A stretch of DNA of 64,000 nt, taken from the NCBI RefSeq assembly GCF_000021985.1, contig NC_011901.1, forward strand, positions 248,001 to 312,000. The letters are read 5' to 3'. The notes below the pieces were generated by a model, which saw only the letters and a list, made by a program, of their open reading frames with translations, ran no database searches and was not told where the DNA came from. This DNA comes from Thioalkalivibrio sulfidiphilus HL-EbGr7 (GTDB lineage: Bacteria > Pseudomonadota > Gammaproteobacteria > Ectothiorhodospirales > Ectothiorhodospiraceae). Shown in pieces: positions 5,401 through 63,140 of this stretch. The position numbers were made by a program, and so were the translations under genes. Numbering within the stretch: the first letter of the stretch is position 1; each line of letters begins with the position of its first letter.

Positions 5401-5479
5401 CCTCTCACAGTGACACGGAGACACGGGGAATGCGCAATGATGGATCTTTCTCCGTGTCCCCGTGCCTCCATGAGAGAAT
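5401..5479. repeat. Hairpin repeat unit, both arms of CAC flavour
   Basis: CCTCTCACAGTGACACGG at the left and CCGTGCCTCCATGAGAG at the right form a long imperfect inverted repeat. This is a homotypic member of the dispersed family described at 57264-58105. Confidence 0.8.
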
Positions 5480-30363: not shown

Positions 30364-30690
30364 CCTCTCGCGGAGGCGCAGGGACGCAGAGAAAGTCTTT
30401 TGATCAGAAAACCCTGTCACTCCGTGGCTCCGCGAGAGCGGTCGGATTTGTATATGGACCTGGGGATTCGGTTCAAAAAAAATGGTGTCTCTCGCAAAGC
30501 CGCCAAGACGCGAAGAAGGGCATTTCATGTCATAAACCCCGCGCCGCCGCGTCTTTGCGAGAGAATGCTTTTTTCGGTAGGAAAACCAAAGGCGGTTCTC
30601 CCGCGGAGGCGCAGATTTTGTAGGATGGGCAAAGCAACGCGTGCCTATGCCGAGAGGGTTTGATGGGTGCGCTGCGCTTCACCCATCCTG
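30364..30690. repeat. Hairpin array plus REP element
   Basis: An X-type unit at 30364-30438 (GCG-flavour left arm, CAC-flavour right arm) and a Z-type unit at 30487-30573 (CTCTCGCAAAGCC arms). A truncated left arm near 30595 is interrupted by a REP at 30620-30690 (GTAGGATGGGCAAAGCAACG...CACCCATCC). It accounts for most of the 485-bp gap before hrpA. Confidence 0.85.
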
Positions 30691-39287: not shown

Positions 39288-39745
39288 GTTGGGGTGAGCG
39301 AAGCGAACCCCAACAGGGCGTACGACGAAAATCAAAAGCGATTCTCTCGCGGAGGCGCAGAGACGCGGAGAAAGGCTATTGATCATAATTCTCCAGTGCC
39401 TCTGTGGCTCCGTGAGAGTATGGGTTTTGGGTTTGACTTCGAGGCTTCGGTTCAAAACGAAAGCCGGGTCCTCTCACGGGGGCACGGAGCCACGGAGGAA
39501 AGGCACTGGGTTCAAAAAATCGAAAATCCATTCTCTCGCAGAGGCGCAGAGGCGCGGAGAAAAAACCTTGATCAGAAAACCCCGTGTCTCTGTGGCTCCG
39601 TGAGAGTATGGGCTTTGGGTTTGGCTTCGAGGCCCAGGTTCAAAACAAAAGCCAGGCCCTCTCACGGAGACACTGAGCCACGGAGGAATGGTTTTTCATT
39701 TCAAAACCCCTGCGCCTCCGCGCCTCTGCGAGAGAACAGGTTTTA
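39285..39745. repeat. REP plus hairpin array between the Usp-like gene and pcm
   Basis: REP GTAGGTTGGGGTGAGCGAAGCGAACCCCAAC at 39285-39314. Then come an X unit (about 39343-39418), a lone CAC-flavour left arm (about 39469), another X unit (about 39530-39606) and a Y unit (CAC-left, GCG-right, about 39659-39735). It fills the gap; no gene seen. Confidence 0.87.
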
Positions 39746-40512: not shown

Positions 40513-40882
40513 TCCTCTCACGGGGGCACGGAGCCACGGAGAAAAGGCTCCTTATTCAATCAACCTGAAATGCGATTCTCTCGCGGAGGCGCTGGGACGC
40601 GGGGAAAGGCATTTGATCAGAAAACCCCGCGCCTCCGCGCCTCTGCGAGAGGATGGGTTTTGTGCGGGAGAGAAAACCACAAAAACGATGTTCTCGCGGA
40701 GGCGCAGGGACGCAGAGAAAGGCGCTTGATCAGGAAACCCCGTGCCCCCGTGGCTCCGTGAGAGGACAGGGTGTTGTCCGGCTTCGGGACTTCATGGAAA
40801 ACCTTATCTCTCGCAAAGCCGCGAAGGCGCCAAGAAAATCGATCAAAAGAATTTCTTAGCGTCTTTGCGTCTTCGCGAGAGA
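40513..40882. repeat. Hairpin array between pcm and the SPOR gene
   Basis: A CAC-flavour left arm (about 40513), then a homotypic GCG unit (about 40575-40651), an X unit (about 40692-40765, with TTGATCAGGAAACCCC loop) and a Z unit (about 40808-40882, CTCTCGCAAAGCC arms). No gene seen in 40433-40898. Confidence 0.87.
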
Positions 40883-44025: not shown

Positions 44026-44330
44026 TCCTCTCACGGGGGCACGGGGCCACGGAGGGAAAGCAACAAACCCAAAGGCGGTTCTCTCGCGGAGGCGCAGGGG
44101 CGTGGAGAAAAGCCTTTGATCAGAAAACCCCGTGTCTCTGTGGCTCCGTGAGAGGATGGGTTTTGGGGTTCGTTCCGAGGCTCCGGTACGAAAACCCGAT
44201 CTCTCGCGAAGACGCCAAGACGCGAAGAAAGGCACTTCATTATGAATTTCTTTGCGTCTTCGCGAGAGACCTGCCTTCAGGTTTTTCCCCCAAAAGCCTT
44301 ACCCCGCGCCTCTGCGTCTCTGCGAGAGAA
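44026..44330. repeat. Hairpin array
   Basis: A CAC-flavour left arm (about 44027), an X unit (about 44079-44155), a Z unit (about 44201-44270, CTCTCGCGAAGACGCC arms) and a lone GCG-flavour right arm (about 44303-44330). No gene seen between 43932 and 44505. Confidence 0.87.
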
Positions 44331-45344: not shown

Positions 45345-45474
45345 GTTCTCTCGCGGAGGCGCAGGGACGCGGGGAAAAGCTGTTTATTTAAAAATCCCTG
45401 CGCCACCGCGAGGAAAACGCCTTTGACGTTTTCCCCAAAAGCCTTTCCCCGCGCCTCCGCGCCTCTGCGAGAGA
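45345..45474. repeat. Hairpin unit, GCG flavour on both sides
   Basis: CTCTCGCGGAGGCGCAGGGACG at the left and CCGCGCCTCCGCGCCTCTGC at the right, with an extra partial CTGCGCCACCGCGAGG between. It lies just downstream of hemH (minus strand). Confidence 0.82.
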
Positions 45475-46687: not shown

Positions 46688-46940
46688 ATCCTCTCACGGG
46701 GGCACGGAGCCACGGGGGAAAGAAATTTGGGTCAAAACCTCAAAGGCCGTTCTCTCGCGGAGGCGCAGGGGCGCGGAGAAAGGCTTATTGATCAGGAAAT
46801 CCCCGTGCCTCCGTGGCTCCGTGAGAGGATGGGTTTTGGGGGTCGCAAGGTCAAAGGCATGGCCTCTCACGGGGGCGCGGAGCCACGGAGGAAAGGCCTT
46901 ATAGTTCAAAACCCCTGCGCCTCCGCGCCTCTGCGAGAGG
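46688..46940. repeat. Hairpin array
   Basis: Order: CAC-left (about 46688), X unit (GCG-left 46750, CAC-right ending about 46830), Y unit (CAC-left about 46863, GCG-right ending about 46940). A GAATTGGGAAGGGCG piece at about 46650 resembles the 43353 inverted repeat. No gene seen in 46592-47005. Confidence 0.87.
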
Positions 46941-47005
46941 ATGGGTTTTTGGCTTTGATTCCTGGGCTTCGCGAGAGAACAAGGCTTTTCGGCCCGAGGT
47001 CGGTC

Positions 47006-47656
47006 CTACGCGAGGGTGCGGCGCCGTAGCGGGCTGGTGCGCGGGAAATGGGACTGCAGGAACTCCATCTGGTCGGCGAGGATGCGCCGGCCCTGGAGGT
47101 AGATGTATTCGGCGTGGGTGGGCACGAAGGGCACGGCCAGGAGCTGCATGCCGGCCTGTTCGGGGGTGCGCCCGGCCTTGTGGTTGTTGCAGCGCTTGCA
47201 GGCGGTGACCACGTTGCGCCAGTGGTCGGCGCCGTTCTGGCTCAACGGGGTGACGTGGTCCCGCGACAGCTCGTGGGACGGATGGGACTGGCCGCAGTAG
47301 AGGCACAGGTGGGCATCACGCTTGAACAGGGCGGGGTTGTTCAGTGGCGGCACGTAGCCGGCGTGGATGGAGCGGTTGGAGCCGTAGGTGGCGATGATGG
47401 AATTGACCTCCACCACGCTCTGCCGCCCGGTGGCGGCGCAGATGCCGCCATGGACGCGATACAGCAGGGTGCCGCAGGTGTAGGCCACCTGTTCGGCGTG
47501 GTAGAGGCGGACCGCCTGCTGGTAGTTGATCCACTCCAGCGGCATGCCGGCTGCGTCGGTACGCAGCACCTGTTGATTCAACTCGAACACCGGGTGACCC
47601 TCGGCGAGCTTGTTGGCTGCTGCGCTGACTTTATCGTTACCGGCCCCGCAAAGCAA
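47006..47656 (-). CDS. HNH endonuclease family protein
   Basis: 216 residues. The C-terminal HNH/zinc module is clear: CLYCGQSHPSHELSRDH, then VTPLSQNGADHWRNVVTACKRC with the second Cys pair, and NNHKAGRTPEQ. The N-terminal part (PVFELNQQVLRTDAAGMPLEW) is the conserved domain common to this chromosomal HNH family. The start is uncertain: TTG at 47656 is the furthest, and a GTG near PVFEL is possible. The biological role is unknown; it is frequently a chromosomal housekeeping-type gene, not a mobile element. Confidence 0.82.
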   Translation of the reverse strand: MLCGAGNDKVSAAANKLAEGHPVFELNQQVLRTDAAGMPLEWINYQQAVRLYHAEQVAYTCGTLLYRVHGGICAATGRQSVVEVNSIIATYGSNRSIHAGYVPPLNNPALFKRDAHLCLYCGQSHPSHELSRDHVTPLSQNGADHWRNVVTACKRCNNHKAGRTPEQAGMQLLAVPFVPTHAEYIYLQGRRILADQMEFLQSHFPRTSPLRRRTLA

Positions 47657-47900
47657 TTATCAGGCCGTTACAAGGGGATGACGGTCAAAACCCGCGAAAA
47701 AAGAGGGTTTCGCCGGGCCGGCCCTGACACTTTGTATTCAAACAGGCCGAAGAATCCGATACCATACCCCCCTTTTTCGGAGCGGATCGGCAAGAATCCG
47801 CGCCCAGAAGACACTGATTCCACAGACATCCTGTTCCCGCCATGCGTCCGGCAAAGGGTCATCCCGACCCCGGATCCCGCGCCGGCTGACGGAGTGAGTT

Positions 47901-49025
47901 ATGCCCATAAAACTGGCCGTGCCCAAAGAAACCGCGCCCGGCGAGCGCCGGGTCGCCCTGGACCCCAGCGTGGTCGCCAAGCTGACCAAGATGGGGATCG
48001 AAGTCCTGGTCCAGAAAGGGGCCGGTGAATCCGCCCATTTCCCCGACGCCGCCTACGCCGACGCCCGCCTGGTGGACGATGCCGCGGCCGAGGCCGATGT
48101 CCTGGTCAAGGTGGCCCCGCCCAGCGTGGACGAGGTCAACCGCATGAAGGACGGCGCCACCCTGGTGGGCTTCTTCCATGCCCACAAGAACCCGGAACTG
48201 GTGAAGGCCATGCAGGCCAAGAAGATCACCAGCTTCGCCATGGAACTCATTCCCCGCATCTCCCGTGCCCAGAGCATGGACGCCCTGTCCTCCCAGGCGG
48301 CCGTGGGCGGCTACAAGGCCGCGATCATGGGTGCGGACCTCTCCTGCCGCTTCTTTCCCATGCTCACCACCGCCGCCGGCACCATCCGCCCGGCCAAGGT
48401 GCTGGTGATCGGCGCCGGCGTGGCGGGCCTTCAGGCCATCGCCACCGCGCGGCGCCTGGGCGCCATCGTCGAGGCCTACGACGTGCGTTCCGCCACCAAG
48501 GAACAGGTGGAGTCCCTGGGCGCCAAGTTCCTGGACCTGGGCGTGAAGGCGGAAGGCGAGGGCGGTTACGCCCGCGAGCTGACCGAGGACGAGAAGAAAC
48601 AGCAGCAGGAGGCCCTGGCCAAGTTCATCAGCCAGACCGACGTGCTGATCACCACTGCTGCCATCCCCGGCCGTCCGTCGCCCAAGCTCATCCCCGCCTC
48701 CATGGTGGCCGGCATGAAGCCCGGCGCGGTGATCGTGGACCTGGCCGCAGAGGGTGGCGGCAACTGCGAGCTGACCCAGCCCGGCGAGACCATCGCGCAT
48801 GGCAACGTCATCATCCACGGCCCCCTGAACATCCCCTCCCAGGTGGCCCTGCACGCCAGCGAGATGTACGCCAAGAACCTGCTCAACTTCCTGTCGCCGC
48901 ACATCAAGGAAGGTGAGTTCACCCCCGACTGGGAAGACGAGATCATCGCCAAGAGCTGCCTCACGCACGCCGGCGAGATCAAACACGAAGCGACCCGCAG
49001 CCTGGTGGAAGGAGGTCAGTCATGA
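47901..49025 (+). CDS. pntAA: NAD(P) transhydrogenase subunit alpha part 1
   Basis: 374 residues, NAD(H)-binding subunit (domain I) of the proton-translocating transhydrogenase that makes NADPH from NADH using proton motive force. Motifs: KETAPGERRVAL near the N-terminus, Rossmann VLVIGAGVAGLQAIATA near 170, SRAQSMDALSSQ near 125, and the RQD-loop-equivalent region. The alpha subunit is split, as in many proteobacteria. It overlaps pntAB by 4 bp. Confidence 0.96.
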   Translation: MPIKLAVPKETAPGERRVALDPSVVAKLTKMGIEVLVQKGAGESAHFPDAAYADARLVDDAAAEADVLVKVAPPSVDEVNRMKDGATLVGFFHAHKNPELVKAMQAKKITSFAMELIPRISRAQSMDALSSQAAVGGYKAAIMGADLSCRFFPMLTTAAGTIRPAKVLVIGAGVAGLQAIATARRLGAIVEAYDVRSATKEQVESLGAKFLDLGVKAEGEGGYARELTEDEKKQQQEALAKFISQTDVLITTAAIPGRPSPKLIPASMVAGMKPGAVIVDLAAEGGGNCELTQPGETIAHGNVIIHGPLNIPSQVALHASEMYAKNLLNFLSPHIKEGEFTPDWEDEIIAKSCLTHAGEIKHEATRSLVEGGQS

Positions 49026-49312
49026 TCGAGGGTTTCGTCGCACTCTATATCTTCATGCTCGCCGCCTTCACCGGCTACGAGGTGATCTCCAAGGTGCCGG
49101 TGATCCTGCACACACCGCTGATGTCCGGCTCCAACTTCGTGCACGGCATCGTGCTGGTGGGCACCATGGTGGCCCTGGGCCACGCCAGCACCCCGCTTGA
49201 GCAGCTGATCGGCTTCGTCGCCGTGATCCTGGGCGCGGGCAACGCCGTGGGCGGCTACGTGGTGACCGAACGCATGCTCGAGATGTTCAAGAGCAGCAAG
49301 GGAGGCAAGTAA
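49022..49312 (+). CDS. pntAB: NAD(P) transhydrogenase subunit alpha part 2
   Basis: 96 residues with three transmembrane helices (VALYIFMLAAFTGYEVI, GIVLVGTMVALGH, IGFVAVILGAGNAVGGYVV), the first part of the membrane domain II. ATG 49022 overlaps the pntAA stop, and pntB begins immediately after its own stop at 49313, so the three genes are one operon. Confidence 0.96.
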   Translation: MIEGFVALYIFMLAAFTGYEVISKVPVILHTPLMSGSNFVHGIVLVGTMVALGHASTPLEQLIGFVAVILGAGNAVGGYVVTERMLEMFKSSKGGK

Positions 49313-50701
49313 ATGAGCTTCATCATCAATGCTGCCTACTTCATCGCGGCGGTCCTGTTCATCGTCGGCCTCAAGCAGATGGCCTCGCCGGTCAACGCCC
49401 GGCGCGGCATCATCTGGGCCGGCGTGGGCATGGTCATCGCCACCCTCGTCACCTTCGTGCACCCGGAAGTCTCCGGGCTGGTCAACTACCTGCTGATCGT
49501 GCTCGGCATCGGCATCGGCGGCGCGCTGGCCTGGTGGACCGGCAAGAAGGTCCCCATGACCGACATGCCGCAGATGATCGCGCTGTACAACGGCATGGGC
49601 GGCGGCGCCGCCGCCGGCATCGGTCTGATCGCTCTGCTGCAGGCCGGCAAGTACGAGATGTCGTTCATCATCCAGTTCATCGCCGTGCTGGGTGTGCTGA
49701 TCGGCTCCGTGGCCTTCTCCGGCTCGCTCATCGCCTACGCCAAGCTCCAGGGCATCATGAAGAAGACCCTGCGCTTCGGTGGCCAGCAGTGGCTCAACCT
49801 GGCCGTGTTCGGCATCACCGTCATCAGCGGCCTGATCCTGGCCTTCAGCGGTGCCGAGGTCAGCGGCAACGTGCTGCTGGTGTTCTTCGTGCTGGCGCTG
49901 GTGTTCGGCGTGCTCATGACCCTGCCCATCGGCGGCGCGGACATGCCCGTGGTGATCTCGCTGTACAACGCGCTGACCGGTCTGGCGGTGGGCTTCAAGG
50001 GCCTGGTGCTGGACAACCCGGCGCTGATGATCGCCGGTATCGTGGTGGGTGCCGCCGGTACCCTGCTGACCCAGCTCATGGCCAAGGCCATGAACCGGCC
50101 CATCAGCAACGTGCTGTTCAGCCACTTCGGTGCCGCCGGTACCGGCGAGGCCGCCGAGGTCACCGGCAGCATGAAGTCCATCGAGGCCAGTGATGCCGGC
50201 GTGATGATGGCCTTCGCCGACAAGGTGATCATCGTGCCCGGTTACGGCATGGCCGTGGCCCAGGCCCAGCACAAGATCTGGGAACTGACCCAGATCCTGC
50301 AGGAGCGCGGCGTGACCGTGAAGTTCGCTATCCACCCGGTGGCGGGCCGCATGCCCGGTCACATGAACGTGCTGCTCGCCGAGGCCGGCGTGCCCTACGA
50401 CATCATCTACGACCTGGACGAGATCAACAGCGAGTTCAAGACCGCCGATGTGGCCGTGGTGATCGGCGCCAACGACGTGGTCAACCCCGTCGCCCGCACC
50501 GATCCGAACAGCCCGATCTACGGCATGCCGATCCTCAATGCCGACCAGGCCAAGAACGTCATCGTCATCAAGCGTGGCCAGGGTGCCGGTTTCTCCGGCG
50601 TGGAGAACCACCTGTTCTTCGCCGACAACACCCGCATGCTCTACGGCGACGGCCAGAAGGTGGCCGCAGAGCTGATCTCCAGCATCAAGGAAATCAGCTG
50701 A
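49313..50701 (+). CDS. pntB: NAD(P) transhydrogenase subunit beta
   Basis: 462 residues: about nine transmembrane helices to residue 270 (remainder of domain II), then the NADP(H)-binding domain III with VIIVPGYGMAVAQAQH near 300, HPVAGRMPGHMNVLLAEA near 345, NSEFKTADVAVVIGANDVVNP near 380 and RGQGAGFSGVEN near 430. All are typical and intact. It ends the pnt operon; a strong terminator follows. Confidence 0.97.
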   Translation: MSFIINAAYFIAAVLFIVGLKQMASPVNARRGIIWAGVGMVIATLVTFVHPEVSGLVNYLLIVLGIGIGGALAWWTGKKVPMTDMPQMIALYNGMGGGAAAGIGLIALLQAGKYEMSFIIQFIAVLGVLIGSVAFSGSLIAYAKLQGIMKKTLRFGGQQWLNLAVFGITVISGLILAFSGAEVSGNVLLVFFVLALVFGVLMTLPIGGADMPVVISLYNALTGLAVGFKGLVLDNPALMIAGIVVGAAGTLLTQLMAKAMNRPISNVLFSHFGAAGTGEAAEVTGSMKSIEASDAGVMMAFADKVIIVPGYGMAVAQAQHKIWELTQILQERGVTVKFAIHPVAGRMPGHMNVLLAEAGVPYDIIYDLDEINSEFKTADVAVVIGANDVVNPVARTDPNSPIYGMPILNADQAKNVIVIKRGQGAGFSGVENHLFFADNTRMLYGDGQKVAAELISSIKEIS

Positions 50702-50730
50702 GGTCGGTCATCAGGCTGACGCAGACGAGA

Positions 50731-50756
50731 AAGCCCGGTGTGAGCCGGGCTTTTTT
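50731..50756 (+). terminator. Rho-independent terminator of the pnt operon
   Basis: An 8-bp stem AAGCCCGG/CCGGGCTT with loop TGTGAG, followed by six T. Confidence 0.94.
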
Positions 50757-50781
50757 GTGTCTGTTGGAACGGAAAAGATGA

Positions 50782-51397
50782 TCCTCTCACGGGGGCACGG
50801 AGCCACGGGGGAGACGCGCTAAACATCAAAGGCGATTTTCTCGCGGAGGCGCGGAGGCGCGGAGGCGCGGAGGCGCAGGGAAAGGCATTTTGATCAGAAA
50901 ACCCCGTGTCTCCGTGGCTCCGTGAGAGGATGGGGTTTTGGGTTAGATCCGAGGCTTCGATATGAAAACCCGATCTCTCGCAAAGCCGCAAAGGCGCGAA
51001 GAAAGATTCTGTAGGATGGGCAAAGCAACGCGTGCCCATGCCGACGGGGTTTGATGGGTGCGCTGCGCTTCACCCATCCTACGGCTTTATCAGGAAACCC
51101 CGTGCCTCCGTGGCTCCGTGAGAGGACCCGCCTTTGACTTTATAATAGCCATCCTCTCACGGAGGCACGGGGCCACAGAGGAAAGGCATTTCATTTCATC
51201 CCCCCTTCGCGTCTCTGCGCCTCTGCGAGAGAATGGATTTTCCAACAAGAAAAAACCAAAAGCTCGATGTTCTCGCGGAGGCGCGGAGATGCAGAGAAAA
51301 GCCTTTACTCAACAAAACCCGTGGCTCCCGTGAGAGGACAAAGGTGTTTTAAAAATCACAAAGCCTTTCTCCGCGTCCCCGCGCCTCCGCGAGAGAA
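50782..51397. repeat. Long hairpin array with REP insertion
   Basis: CAC-left (50782); an X unit whose GCG-left arm carries four tandem GCGGAGGC copies (50843-50874) and a CAC-right arm near 50930; a Z-left arm (about 50980) cut by the REP at 51011-51082; a CAC-right arm (about 51105-51125); a Y unit (about 51153-51230); an X unit (about 51268-51337); a GCG-right arm (to 51397). It fills the gap between pntB and the cytochrome gene. Confidence 0.88.
51011..51082. repeat. REP palindrome, GTAGGATGGGCAAAGC type
   Basis: GTAGGATGGGCAAAGCAACG at the left and GCGCTTCACCCATCCTAC at the right. The same family as 30620-30690. Here it lies between a Z-type left arm and a CAC-type right arm, as if inserted into or replacing half-units. 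Confidence 0.87.
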
Positions 51398-57229: not shown

Positions 57230-57263
57230 GGGCGGTTCAAAGGCGTAAATCGGAAAGGCTTGG

Positions 57264-58105
57264 TCCTCTCACGGGGGCACAGGGCCACGGAGGAAATGCT
57301 TTTCATTTCAAAACCCCCGCGCCTCCGCGTCTCTGCGAGAGGATGGGTTTTTCCAGCCAGGAAACCCAAAAATCGATGTTCTCGCGGAGGCGCAGGGGCG
57401 CGGGGAAAGGCGTATTGATCAGAAAACCCCGTGGCTCCGTGAGGGGATGGGTTTTGGGTTCGGTCCGGGGTTTCGATAATAAAAACCGATCTCTCGCGAA
57501 GCTGCCAAGGCGCGTCCTCTCACGGAGCCACGGGGCCACGGAGGAAGGGTATTGCTTTTCAATACTTCCGCGTCTCCGCGTCTCCGCGTCTCTGCGAGAG
57601 AATGGGTTTTGTCTGGCCAGGAAACCCAAAAATCGATGTTCTCGCGGAGGCGCAGGGGCGCGGGGAAAGGCATTTTGATCAGAAAACCCCGTGCCTCCGT
57701 GGCTCCGAGAGGGGATGGGTTTGGGGGCGGTCAGAGGCTTCGATATGAAAACCCGATCTCTCGCCAAGCCGCGAAGCCGCAAAGAACCCATTTTTTCATG
57801 TCTTTCTTCGCGCCTTGGCGGCTTGGCGAGAGGATCTGGTTTGTCCTGGAAACAAACCAAAGGCGGGTCCTCTCACGGAGACACGGAGACACGGAGACAC
57901 GGAGACACGGAGACACGGAGACACGGAGGAAAGGCTTTTCATCTCAAAAACCTCTGCGTCTCCGCGCCTCTGCGAGAGAATAGGTTTTGGGGTTTCTGTC
58001 TGAAGCTCGGGCAGTTCGCGGCGGGGTCGCCGCTCCTACAGGCGGAGGCTAAGGTGGAGGCCTTATGATCAAGAAACCCCCGTGGCCCCGTGTCTCCGTG
58101 AGAGG
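57264..58105. repeat. Largest hairpin-repeat array
   Basis: Units in order: Y (57264-57342), X (about 57378-57448), a Z-left half (about 57490), Y (57516-57601), X (57638-57716), Z (57757-57834), Y with tandem CACGGAGA copies (57868-57980), then a lone CAC-right arm (about 58069-58105). The left part of the last unit is replaced by a GGCGGGGTCGCCGCTCCTAC REP near 58021-58040. X means GCG-flavour left arm with CAC-flavour right arm; Y is the reverse; Z has AAG-flavour arms on both sides. No gene seen. Confidence 0.9.
57874..57929. repeat. 8-bp tandem repeat CACGGAGA, about seven copies
   Basis: Exact tandem copies of CACGGAGA run from 57874 to 57929 inside the left arm of a Y-type hairpin unit. 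A matching tandem of GCGGAGGC (four copies) lies at 50843-50874. Confidence 0.95.
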
Positions 58106-58242
58106 ACAGGCTTTCGGGTTTATGACGTGTGCATGGGGTAACATCACCTGCCGTGTCAAGCTCTTTGCCGAGGGTTATGCACAGGAATTGGCGGGCTGGA
58201 ATGCCACTGCCCGAAGATGTCAAGACTTATGTGCGCTGGCCG

Positions 58243-58400
58243 TAAAAAATATACAACTCTTTGTTTTTGAATAATAAATATCATTGGTCATTTTTTGTTC
58301 AAGTTAACAGCCGGCCAATGATCACGGGCTTTGCGCCAGTTTTGTGACATTCTATCCACATAGTTATCCACAGGTTTTGTGGAAAAGCATGTTATCCCTC
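58243..58400. promoter_or_regulatory. AT-rich segment with clustered DnaA boxes, candidate origin-like site
   Basis: 58243-58306 is strikingly AT-rich for this window (AATAATAAATATC, TTTTTTGTTC). Downstream are TTATCCACA at 58364-58372 (perfect DnaA box), CTATCCACA at 58352-58360 (one mismatch), TTTTCCACA on the minus strand at 58378-58386 (one mismatch) and a weaker TTATCCCTC at 58392-58400. It lies directly upstream of priA, a replication gene. It could be oriC, a DnaA-controlled promoter or a titration site. Confidence 0.6.
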
Positions 58401-58461
58401 AGTGAAAGAATGAGTTAGCGTTCTTTGCGGGAAATCACATAAACAAACACGCCTAACTTGG

Positions 58462-60675
58462 ATGAAATCCGAATCCCCCATTGCCATCTGCCGGGTCGCC
58501 GTGCCGGGCCCCTTGCCGGAGGCCCTGGATTACCGGGTGCCCGAGCGGGGCGAGCCGCCCGTGCCCGGCGCCCGGGTGCGGGTGGATCTGGGGCGCCGGC
58601 AGGTGGTGGGCGTGGTCACGGCACTGGCGTCCACGAGCGAGATCCCGCGCAACCGGCTGCGGCCGGTGCGCGAGGTGCTGGACGAGGCGTCCTTGCTGGA
58701 CGACACCCTGATGGCCCTGCTCACCTGGGCGGCGGACTACTACCACCATCCCGTGGGCGAGGTACTGAACCAGGCCTTGCCGGTGCTGCTGCGCCAGGGG
58801 CGGGAGGCCCAGGCGGCCACCCGCAGCGTCTACCGGCTAAGCGACGCGGGTGCACAGGTCGATCCGGCAACCCTGACCCGGGCCCCTCGCCAGTCTGCGC
58901 TGCTGGCACTACTCAGGGAGGCGCCTGGCGGGCTTTCCGCCGGAGAACTGGAGGATGAACCTCCGGGGAACTGGGGCGGCGTCCTGCGGGCCGTGGTGGA
59001 GCGCGGCTGGGTGGAGCGGATTGAACGGGCGCTGGACGCGATTGACGGTCCGTGCCCTGCCCGGGCAGGCCCTGCCCTCAACGAGGCCCAGGCGGCGGCG
59101 GTGGAGGCCGTGCGGGGCCACTTCGGGCAGTTCGCACCCCATCTGCTGCAGGGGGTCACGGGCAGCGGCAAGACCGAGGTCTACCTGCAGCTGATCGAGG
59201 CCGCCCTGGCCGAGGGGCGGCAGACCCTGGTGCTGGTGCCGGAGATCGCGCTTACGCCCCAGCTGGTGCGCCGCTTCCGCAGCCGGCTGGCCTGCCCGGT
59301 GGCGGTGCTGCATTCCGGGCTCGGTGAACGGGAGCGGCTGGACGGCTGGCTGGCGGCCCGAAGCGGCGCGGCCGGCGTGATCATCGGCACCCGCTCGGCG
59401 GTGTTCGTGCCCTGGGCAAGGCCGGGGCTCATCATCGTGGACGAGGAGCACGACGGCTCGTTCAAGCAGCACGAGGGTTTCCGCTACCACGCCCGGGACG
59501 TGGCGGTGAAGCGGGCGCATCTCGAATCCGTGCCGGTGCTGCTGGGTTCGGCCACGCCCTCCTTCGAGAGCCTGGCCAACGTGACCCGGGGGCAGTACAC
59601 CCGGCTGCGCCTGCGGGAGCGGGCGGGCGGCGCGGCGCCTCCCCGGGTGGAGCTGCTGGACCTGCGCCGTCAGACCCTGGACGAGGGCCTGTCACTGGGT
59701 CTGATGGACCGCATGCAGCGCCACCTGGAGGCCGAGGGGCAGGTGCTGCTGTTTCTGAATCGCCGGGGCTTCGCGCCGACGCTCCTGTGTCACGACTGCG
59801 GCTGGGTGGCGGAATGCCCCCGTTGCGATGCGCGCATGACCTGGCACCAGGGCGACGGGCGCATCCGCTGCCATCACTGCGGCCACGAACGCAACCGTCC
59901 GCGACATTGCCCCGCCTGCGGCAGCGTAAGCCTCGGTGGTCTGGGCCAGGGCACCGAGCGGGTGGAGGCGGCCCTGGAGCGGCATTTCCCCGGGCACTCA
60001 GTCGCCCGCCTGGACCGGGACAGCACCCGGCGCAAGGGGGCCCTGGAGGCGGTGCTGGAGGACGTGCGTTCCGGCAGGCATCGCATCCTGGTGGGTACCC
60101 AGATGCTCGCCAAGGGGCATCACTTTCCGGACGTGACCCTGGTGGGGATCCTGGATGCGGACCAGGGCCTGTTCAGCGCCGATTTCCGCGCCGCCGAGCG
60201 CATGGCGCAGATGATGGTGCAGGTGGCCGGGCGCGCCGGACGCGCGGGCCGCGCCGGCGAGGTGGTGATCCAGACCCATCACCCGGATCACCCCCTGTTG
60301 CTGACCCTGGTGCACCAGGGCTACGAGGCCTTCGCCGAGGCGGCCCTGGCCGAACGCCGGGTGGCCGGCCTGCCGCCCTACACGAGCCTGGTCCTGCTGC
60401 GTGCCGAGGCCACGGGCCAGCAGGCGCCCAACGACTTCCTGGAGGCGGCCCGCCGCAGCCTGGAGGCCCTGCGGCCGGATTCGGTGCAGATCTGGGGCCC
60501 GGCCCCCGCGCTGATGGAACGCCGCGCCGGGCGCTACCGGGCGCAGCTGATGATCCAGAGCGCGTCGCGCCCCGCCCTGCAGCGCGCCCTGCGCGCCTGG
60601 ACGCCGGGGCTCGCGCAGTTGCCCGGGGCGAGGAAGGTGCGCTGGGTGCTGGATGTGGATGCGCTGGAGATGTGA
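58462..60675 (+). CDS. priA: Primosomal replication-restart helicase PriA
   Basis: 737 residues. PriA loads the replicative helicase at abandoned forks. The N-terminal 3'-DNA-binding domain begins near residue 10 (RVAVPGPLPEALDYRVPE). Helicase motifs: Walker A GVTGSGKTEVYLQL near 233 and DEEH in IIVDEEHDGSFKQHEG near 325. Eight zinc Cys appear in CHDCGWVAECPRCD, then CHHCGHERNRPRHCPACGS near 440-480. The C-terminal signature GTQMLAKGHHFPDVTLVGIL is near 555. ATG 58462 is the first start; the upstream DnaA-box region suggests DnaA-linked control. It is not adjacent to argS, which is 15 kb away. Confidence 0.97.
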   Translation: MKSESPIAICRVAVPGPLPEALDYRVPERGEPPVPGARVRVDLGRRQVVGVVTALASTSEIPRNRLRPVREVLDEASLLDDTLMALLTWAADYYHHPVGEVLNQALPVLLRQGREAQAATRSVYRLSDAGAQVDPATLTRAPRQSALLALLREAPGGLSAGELEDEPPGNWGGVLRAVVERGWVERIERALDAIDGPCPARAGPALNEAQAAAVEAVRGHFGQFAPHLLQGVTGSGKTEVYLQLIEAALAEGRQTLVLVPEIALTPQLVRRFRSRLACPVAVLHSGLGERERLDGWLAARSGAAGVIIGTRSAVFVPWARPGLIIVDEEHDGSFKQHEGFRYHARDVAVKRAHLESVPVLLGSATPSFESLANVTRGQYTRLRLRERAGGAAPPRVELLDLRRQTLDEGLSLGLMDRMQRHLEAEGQVLLFLNRRGFAPTLLCHDCGWVAECPRCDARMTWHQGDGRIRCHHCGHERNRPRHCPACGSVSLGGLGQGTERVEAALERHFPGHSVARLDRDSTRRKGALEAVLEDVRSGRHRILVGTQMLAKGHHFPDVTLVGILDADQGLFSADFRAAERMAQMMVQVAGRAGRAGRAGEVVIQTHHPDHPLLLTLVHQGYEAFAEAALAERRVAGLPPYTSLVLLRAEATGQQAPNDFLEAARRSLEALRPDSVQIWGPAPALMERRAGRYRAQLMIQSASRPALQRALRAWTPGLAQLPGARKVRWVLDVDALEM

Positions 60676-60704: not shown

Positions 60705-60894
60705 TTCTCTCGCGGAGGCGCAGGGGCGCGGGGAAAAAGACCTTTGAATTAAAACCCCGTGCCTCTGTGGCTCCGTGAGAGGAATGGGTTTTGTGTGGGA
60801 GACCGACGGAAAACATCGTCCTCTCACGGGGACACGGAGCCACGGAGAGAAGCATTTATTTCAATAACCCTGCGCCTCTGCGCCTCTGCGAGAG
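60705..60894. repeat. Hairpin pair after priA
   Basis: An X unit (60705-60782) followed by a Y unit (60820-60894). Confidence 0.88.
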
Positions 60895-62782: not shown

Positions 62783-63140
62783 TTCTCTCGCGGAGGCGCG
62801 GAGGCGCAGAGGCGCGGAGAAAAGGCTTTTGAATAAAAACCCCGTGTCTCCGTGGCTCCGTGAGAGGAATTTGTTTTGTATTGGATCCGGCAAATAAACC
62901 GTATCTCTCGCAAAGCCGCGAAGGCGCGAAGAATGCAACTTTTGGGTTTCTTTGCGTCTTCGCGTCTTGGCGAGAGGATGGGCTTTGTGTGGGTGACCTA
63001 CCTAAAATATTGTCCTCTCACGGGGGCACGGAGCCACGGAGGAAAGGCTTTTTGATTCAATCCCCCTGCGCCTCCGCGTCTCTGCGAGAGAATCGTGTTT
63101 TGATCAAGGAACTACGTGCCCCCGTGGCTCCGTGAGAGAA
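62783..63140. repeat. Hairpin array between two divergent genes
   Basis: An X unit (62783-62871) with an expanded GCGGAGGC left arm, a Z unit (about 62904-62978), a Y unit (63014-63092) and a lone CAC-right arm (63117-63140). 62626-62780 holds only the upstream region of the minus-strand gene, with TTGCG-CGCCT-CGCAA near 62736. Confidence 0.88.

Follow-up and report, generated by a model that had tools for sequence, protein, structure and literature searches.

Concentric flavour palindromes in a modular octamer repeat family of Thioalkalivibrio sulfidiphilus

The genome of Thioalkalivibrio sulfidiphilus HL-EbGr7 carries dispersed mirror-image repeats whose heterotypic hairpins, originally predicted to be reciprocal X units (G left arm, C right arm) and Y units (C left arm, G right arm), are the left and right halves of concentric palindromes (G[C C]G or C[G G]C) in which each layer is homotypic. 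Our analysis covered the single 3,464,554-bp contig (genome-wide in what follows) and, within it, the window, a stretch of 64,000 nt at bases 248001-312000; right- and left-pointing arms are written > and <, and the letters G, C and A stand for the arm flavours. We lean slightly towards reading these repeats as a BIME-like family that acts at the DNA level, is recognised by a putative protein and uses orthogonal arm flavours as pairing codes, and we hold the anatomy with far more confidence than the function.

An arm consists of CTCT followed by degenerate octamers of the form CRCNRRGN, in three flavours. A relaxed finder, which includes a few lone arms within genes, parsed 294 arms genome-wide, comprising 133 of flavour G, 98 of C, 62 of A and one mixed; exactly three octamers were present in 262 of them, bearing out the original description of arms as three degenerate 8-nt modules, and the other arms had two to seven. 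With a strict finder, 67 arms were detected in the window, compared with 0.8 in base shuffles and 1.1 in dinucleotide-block shuffles, and a 26-nt arm pattern gave 321 matches genome-wide versus 7 with the reversed control. The sites come from pattern searches, so that the numbers of sites and arms are at-least values from which degenerate copies may be missing. Arms of five to seven octamers, seen at window positions 57870-57929 and 50838-50881 and at loci L037 and L057, suggest tandem slippage inside arms.

Outside the octamers, CTCT is preceded by a flank of the form AAAACCnnT[T/C]. The consensus of 115 outer edges is A-rich, next C-rich, next T[T/C] and then CTCT, with A-rich positions at -10 to -8, C-rich positions at -6/-5 and a T at -2 in G and C arms. 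Position -1 is mostly T in G and A arms and C in C arms (chi-square p 5e-25; flank profiles of 293 arms), indicating that the flavour code extends past the octamers. The spacer between neighbouring units is made of two such flanks facing each other; in an isolated A unit at 2,245,505, the flanks are perfectly inverted (AAAACCGGTT and AACCGGTTTT), and the GGTTTT that lies a few bases past the stem at many right edges, which could recall the T run of an intrinsic terminator, is part of this palindromic flank and is mirrored at the left.

Eleven window sites have at least two arms, close to the dozen or so arrays that had been estimated. The features of the window are the following.

57256..58115: array C>G<G>C<A>C>G<G>C<A>A<C>G<C<, with C[GG]C palindromes (the third one partial) interleaved with A units, plus outer flanks
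57266..57341, + strand: Y unit, C arm 57266-57293, G arm 57314-57341
57379..57445, + strand: X unit, G arm 57379-57406, C arm 57426-57445 (two octamers)
57314..57406: facing homotypic G arms of the Y unit at 57266..57341 and the X unit at 57379..57445, an inverted repeat with palindromic spacer GATGGGTTTTT...AAACCCAAAAATC, predicted to fold as one hairpin
57517..57713: second C[GG]C palindrome, Y 57517-57600, X 57639-57713
57758..57832: homotypic A-flavour hairpin
57870..57929, + strand: C arm with seven octamers (tandem growth)
5402..5476: isolated homotypic C>C< unit
30365..30617: site G>C<A>G<G>
39344..39734: site G>C<C>G>C<C>G<
40515..40881: site C>G>G<G>C<A>A<
44028..44328: site C>G>C<A>A<G<
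45348..45473: site G>..G<
46691..46939: site C>G>C<C>G<
50784..51395: site C>G>C<A>C<C>G<G>G<, its A arm and next C arm separated by a GTAG-type REP
60707..60894: concentric doublet G>C<C>G<
62785..63138: site G>C<A>A<C>G<C<

Flavours were not combined at random. Short hairpins (loop of at most 30 nt) genome-wide comprised 31 CG, 25 GC, 20 AA, 8 CC and 7 GG, with 8 others, and 56 of the 71 G/C hairpins were heterotypic (2x2 Fisher p 1.3e-6, OR 0.072; 19/21 within the window and 37/50 outside it). The predicted systematic heterotypy was thereby confirmed genome-wide, and random pairing of flavours, the test that the prediction itself had named, was rejected. Heterotypy depended on context: isolated G and C hairpins were homotypic in 9/10 cases, contradicting the claim that only the A (AAG) flavour is regularly homotypic, as opposed to 55/61 heterotypic G/C hairpins in multi-arm sites (OR 82, p 6e-7). 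When all flavours were taken together, 12/13 lone short hairpins were homotypic and 63/86 of those in multi-arm sites heterotypic. Facing arms of neighbouring units across the long spacer were homotypic in 36/41 cases (GG 17, CC 19, GC 2, CG 3; p 1.1e-6). These Fisher tests count units, which arrays duplicate, rather than independent events; with one hairpin per site, short frames were heterotypic in 28 cases versus homotypic in 13, and facing arms homotypic in 31 versus heterotypic in 2.

The same order extended to whole sites. Flavour-concentric arrangements were found at 11 of 12 four-arm sites, versus 1.55 in shuffles (seven G>C<C>G<, two C>G<G>C< and two G>A>A<G<), and the two layers differed in flavour at 11/11 of them, the sample on which the statement that layers always differ is based. 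Among two-arm sites, 18/24 were concentric and five of the remaining six were same-direction pairs. The maximum number of nested homotypic pairs was 110 of 140, compared with 69.3 (sd 5.2) in 300 within-strand flavour shuffles, whose own maximum was 82. The concentric symmetry together with the difference between layers makes X and Y halves of one mirror-symmetric element, so that the frame originally chosen is half a unit off for doublets and correct for isolated units. The loops ascribed to X and Y are a local feature: TGATCA was present in 9/11 X loops and TTCAAAA in 3/8 Y loops within the window, as opposed to 1/14 and 0/23, respectively, elsewhere. As simple reverse complements of each other, X and Y were rejected: the relation applies at genome position 315-316 kb, where some 'Y' units are inverted X by loop and arm ends, but window Y loops share the polarity of X.

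Folding predictions were in keeping with this architecture. With RNA parameters, each of seven G>C<C>G< doublets from the rest of the genome (one lying within a five-arm site) was predicted to form a single concentric hairpin. With DNA parameters, applied to both strands of seven doublets having three octamers in every arm (six of the previous seven plus window 60707-60894), the concentric fold was predicted to be better than two local hairpins by a mean of 33.4 kcal/mol. In an all-one-flavour control, in which the inner arms were given the outer flavour, the predicted margin fell to 7.0 kcal/mol, and the outer arms no longer paired mutually in 3/14 strand-cases under the same parameters. As modelled here, the flavour difference favours the concentric fold over local hairpins. 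That distinct arm sets with a common CRCNRRGN grammar might serve as an orthogonal folding code, forcing long single-stranded or cruciform DNA into one nested fold and suppressing local hairpins, is an idea we put forward tentatively and with more doubt than belief.

In this architecture, a half-unit comprises the outer flank, CTCT and three octamers of one flavour; two facing half-units of the same flavour form a hairpin unit, and layering two different flavours yields the concentric forms G[C C]G, C[G G]C and G[A A]G. In the model that we propose, selection may act on the DNA via a putative protein reading CRCNRRGN, and the flavours would be orthogonal pairing codes that lead single-stranded or cruciform DNA to adopt a single concentric hairpin in place of two local hairpins. 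Old sites would be retained and reshuffled by recombination or conversion, no fresh insertion having been seen.

A competing explanation, which we consider possible although rather unlikely, holds that these are REPIN- or MITE-like mobile elements, still active through a transposase in trans, with X/Y as an inverted doublet. The dispersal of the copies, the conserved outer flanks, the similar hairpins in other phyla and the patchy presence in the genus speak for it. The hairpin pattern occurred in 4 of 96 genomes from the genus, family and class (own genome 86, G004 108, G003 42, G005 1); within the genus, the own genome, G003 and G004 were positive and G001 and G002 negative. Elsewhere, arms outnumbered the control in a deltaproteobacterial MAG (70 versus 0), Bythopirellula (29 versus 3), a Planctomycetaceae MAG (19 versus 1) and an unclassified MAG (10 versus 0). 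The hairpins of the deltaproteobacterial MAG, Bythopirellula and Thioalkalivibrio G003 resemble ours in combining CTC with CRCNRAGN modules (octamer or nonamer), inverted arms and a short loop, and differ in being mostly single-layer and of one or mixed flavour, with no concentric doublets among the examples. Those from the deltaproteobacterial MAG and Bythopirellula were single hairpins, and among the matches listed for G003 the hairpins were single and of A flavour, with a 9-nt step ahead of the third module. The recurrence of the octamer grammar in Deltaproteobacteria and Planctomycetes hints at a widespread, unnamed and putative octamer-reading protein. Octamer matches in Streptomyces and Actinomadura contained no arm and were taken as chance. 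Scans of viral sequences gave one contig each; a contig filed as viral, IMGVR_UViG_3300005512_000221 (L135), has three C-flavour octamer hairpins and is possibly host sequence.

The stability of the sites weighs against ongoing mobility. An octamer scan of named genomes assigned 21 of 27 stretches to strain ALJ17 (labelled T. sulfidiphilus), in which we searched for the flanks of 16 isolated sites. Fourteen were assessable (L066 and L070 with one flank matched in part), the two outside the assessment being L046, with flanks on two contigs, and L074, with no hit. Octamer units were present at 14/14 assessable sites, 11 of them with an identical flavour string, and no empty site was found among these 14 in this one relative. 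At the assessable sites, the strain comparison that had been suggested returned shared occupancy and no absences, together with three switches affecting both arms. Two further ALJ17 arrays, one where the window genome lacks the region (L116) and one by a diverged gene (L099), are not usable as empty-site tests. Transposase genes likewise gave the mobile reading no support: of 35 Y1_Tnp loci (mostly about 3 kb; five from the own genome and 30 of 46 matches in seven other genomes), none contained an octamer hairpin, the closest being one stray weak mixed arm in L164, and association with RAYT genes was rejected on these loci. Ten window ORFs were tested against Pfam; seven matched (priA, ferrochelatase, both transhydrogenase subunits, argS, PCMT and a choice-of-anchor protein) and are housekeeping or ordinary, three had no match, and no transposase was among the ten. 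The recognising nuclease or transposase sought on the original suggestion was thus not found among the loci and ORFs covered. GTAG-type REPs surround the Y1 genes at L080 and L081, and the locus of another Y1_Tnp gene (L078, 633-1299) has ten copies of a 44-nt segment with a constant core and about 70-nt spacing, resembling a CRISPR.

Sites that are shared between the strains can nevertheless change flavour. Listing the HL-EbGr7 state against the ALJ17 state, with no direction of change implied, both arms had switched at L055 (A>A< versus C>C<), L076 (G..A..G versus C>C<) and L037 (G>G< versus A>C<C>A<), and each state at these three sites was flavour-symmetric at its ends. In array arms aligned gap-free between the strains, flavour was kept in 108/111. 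A further unit exchange is possibly represented by L042 and L094 (own A>A<G>G< versus C>G<C>C< in ALJ17), whose orthology is drawn from one matching flank only. HL-EbGr7 also has an extra segment of roughly 7 kb (window 51.1-58.0 kb) with an array on each side, which is absent at this place from ALJ17, G002 and G003; its ORFs of 878 and 780 aa have no Pfam match. In ALJ17, no more than about 530 bases separate a match to window 58057-59526 from the match to window 46876-51086 that comes after it, with one long array there, and the corresponding interval is about 1.35 kb in G002 and G003. Recombination does occur at octamer sites, as both-arm switches and the correspondence of the two arrays around the 7-kb segment to one array in ALJ17 demonstrate. 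In G002 and G003, gaps matching window arrays (L198, L199, L204 and L205) contain short-module repeats of other kinds, GGAAGTGGGAAGTGTGAATTGGGAAGT... as well as nonamers GCCACAGAGGTCACAGAG that have an inverted partner, which suggests that several modular repeat families share intergenic hot spots.

The repeats might instead work as RNA, in the form of 3' UTR hairpins with a role in mRNA protection, mRNA processing or ribosome stalling, like that reported for REPs near stop codons, and we judge this unlikely. By gene calls from a home-made GC-frame heuristic, 3/68 sites lay inside an ORF call, and element edges were within 40 nt of a stop codon in 41/79 cases facing gene 3' ends versus 8/52 facing 5' ends; this crowding of gene 3' ends leaves room for a 3'-UTR role, and REPs at most 15 nt from an ORF are linked with translational control in the RepRanger study (PMC12306157). 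Against it, 18/68 sites lay between convergent genes, and both strands fold. Across 110 homotypic nested pairs, 2114/2576 positions matched and 332 mismatches were one-strand wobbles, 166 on each strand; where flanking genes were co-oriented, G-U wobbles (G-U/A-C mismatches) showed no sense-strand excess (108 sense versus 120 antisense, p 0.47). The missing strand bias speaks against selection on an RNA structure, and an RNA-strand signature was rejected. No Rfam RNA family matched the window at gathering score.

Divergence between HL-EbGr7 and ALJ17 suggests that selection may act on the octamers as DNA sequence. Over 124 of the 294 arms, octamer positions 1, 2, 3, 5 and 7 differed by 1.6, 3.2, 1.1, 1.9 and 2.1%, position 6 by 10.4% and positions 4 and 8 by 17.3 and 18.5%, with reference values of 1.4% for CTCT, 17.0% for loops, 13.9% for spacers and 12.6% for third codon positions. 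The pattern was unchanged when arms were ascertained on the ALJ17 side and pattern-matching arms were separated, and at 11 isolated sites found by flanks alone, positions 4/8 differed in 22/154 comparisons and positions 1/2/3/5/7 in 10/384. Positions 4 and 8 of paired arms did not covary beyond shuffles in either frame, ruling out compensatory pairing at the variable positions and indicating that selection does not maintain perfect pairing there. It is CRCNRRGN itself that seems to be under constraint, and conservation by position, rather than mere complementarity, is a sign of sequence recognition. The arms could also be plain protein sites whose palindromy is incidental. The roughly tenfold contrast between octamer positions provides a concrete 8-bp motif with which to hunt for a candidate binding protein.

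Concerted evolution without function, in which gene conversion among copies maintains the octamer consensus and the flavour symmetry goes back to a small number of founder palindromes, would account for whole-unit flavour switches at fixed sites and for loops shared locally within arrays. It appears improbable to us, as isolated units are equally constrained by position while the sequence between their arms diverges by 19%, and unbiased conversion gives no reason why positions 4 and 8 are free in all flavours. Least of all, and very improbably, could X and Y be reciprocal recombination products of GG and CC hairpins, since such an exchange, which fits the presence of both parental and mixed combinations, would leave solitary X or Y units, whereas 1/13 isolated short hairpins is heterotypic and has a poor right arm; of the pairing or recombination rule put forward originally, the non-random pairing stands genome-wide and the reciprocal origin gives way to halves of concentric palindromes.

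By likeness, the octamer repeats may be taken as an untagged family that would work like REP, BIME and REPIN elements. With the GTAG/CGTC-tagged REPs described in PMC3733652 they share dispersed extragenic palindromes, inverted doublets (head-head and tail-tail dimers) and structured spacers; several of those families prefer heterodimers, as here, and the CGTC repeats likewise have no associated transposase in that account. They differ in having three 8-nt modules per arm versus stems of 5-13 bp, three flavours and concentric symmetry (PMC3733652), and no GTAG or CGTC tag was found at the unit edge (115 outer edges, 293 arm flanks), which instead has AAAACCnnT[T/C]CTCT. The preference of REP dimers for unlike partners is said there to have 'no obvious explanation' (PMC3733652). 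It gains a simple, testable form here, in which layers self-pair and neighbouring layers differ, which would block local mispairing.

Like REPINs and BIMEs, the family has two inverted hairpin units with a spacer, foldable as one long hairpin, and arrays of alternating orientation (PMC3116915, PMC2817692), and its inverted doublets are extragenic, with 11/12 four-arm sites concentric and 3/68 sites in ORFs. It departs from the REPINs and BIMEs of these sources in its layered flavour code and in that none of its members flanks a Y1 (RAYT-type) gene among the 35 tested. Bacterial MITEs such as Correia, RUP, ERIC and YAPL are also intergenic fold-back repeats of 100-200 bp (PMC2229807), and inverted outer flanks were seen on octamer units; the modular octamer arms set our family apart from the MITEs described in that source. 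No match to octamer strings of 14-15 nt or to nested flavour palindromes was found in the open-access literature searched, and the REP published for HL-EbGr7 in PMC2817692 is a different sequence, GTAGGTCGGCCTTCAGGCCGAC. Octamer arrays also enclose GTAG-type REP-like palindromes, at window 51003-51096 and about 58010-58042 (GTAGGATGGGC...GCCCATCCTAC; GCGGCG...CGCCGCTCCTAC hairpin), one of them flanked by an A arm and a C arm, so that one repeat family is nested within another.
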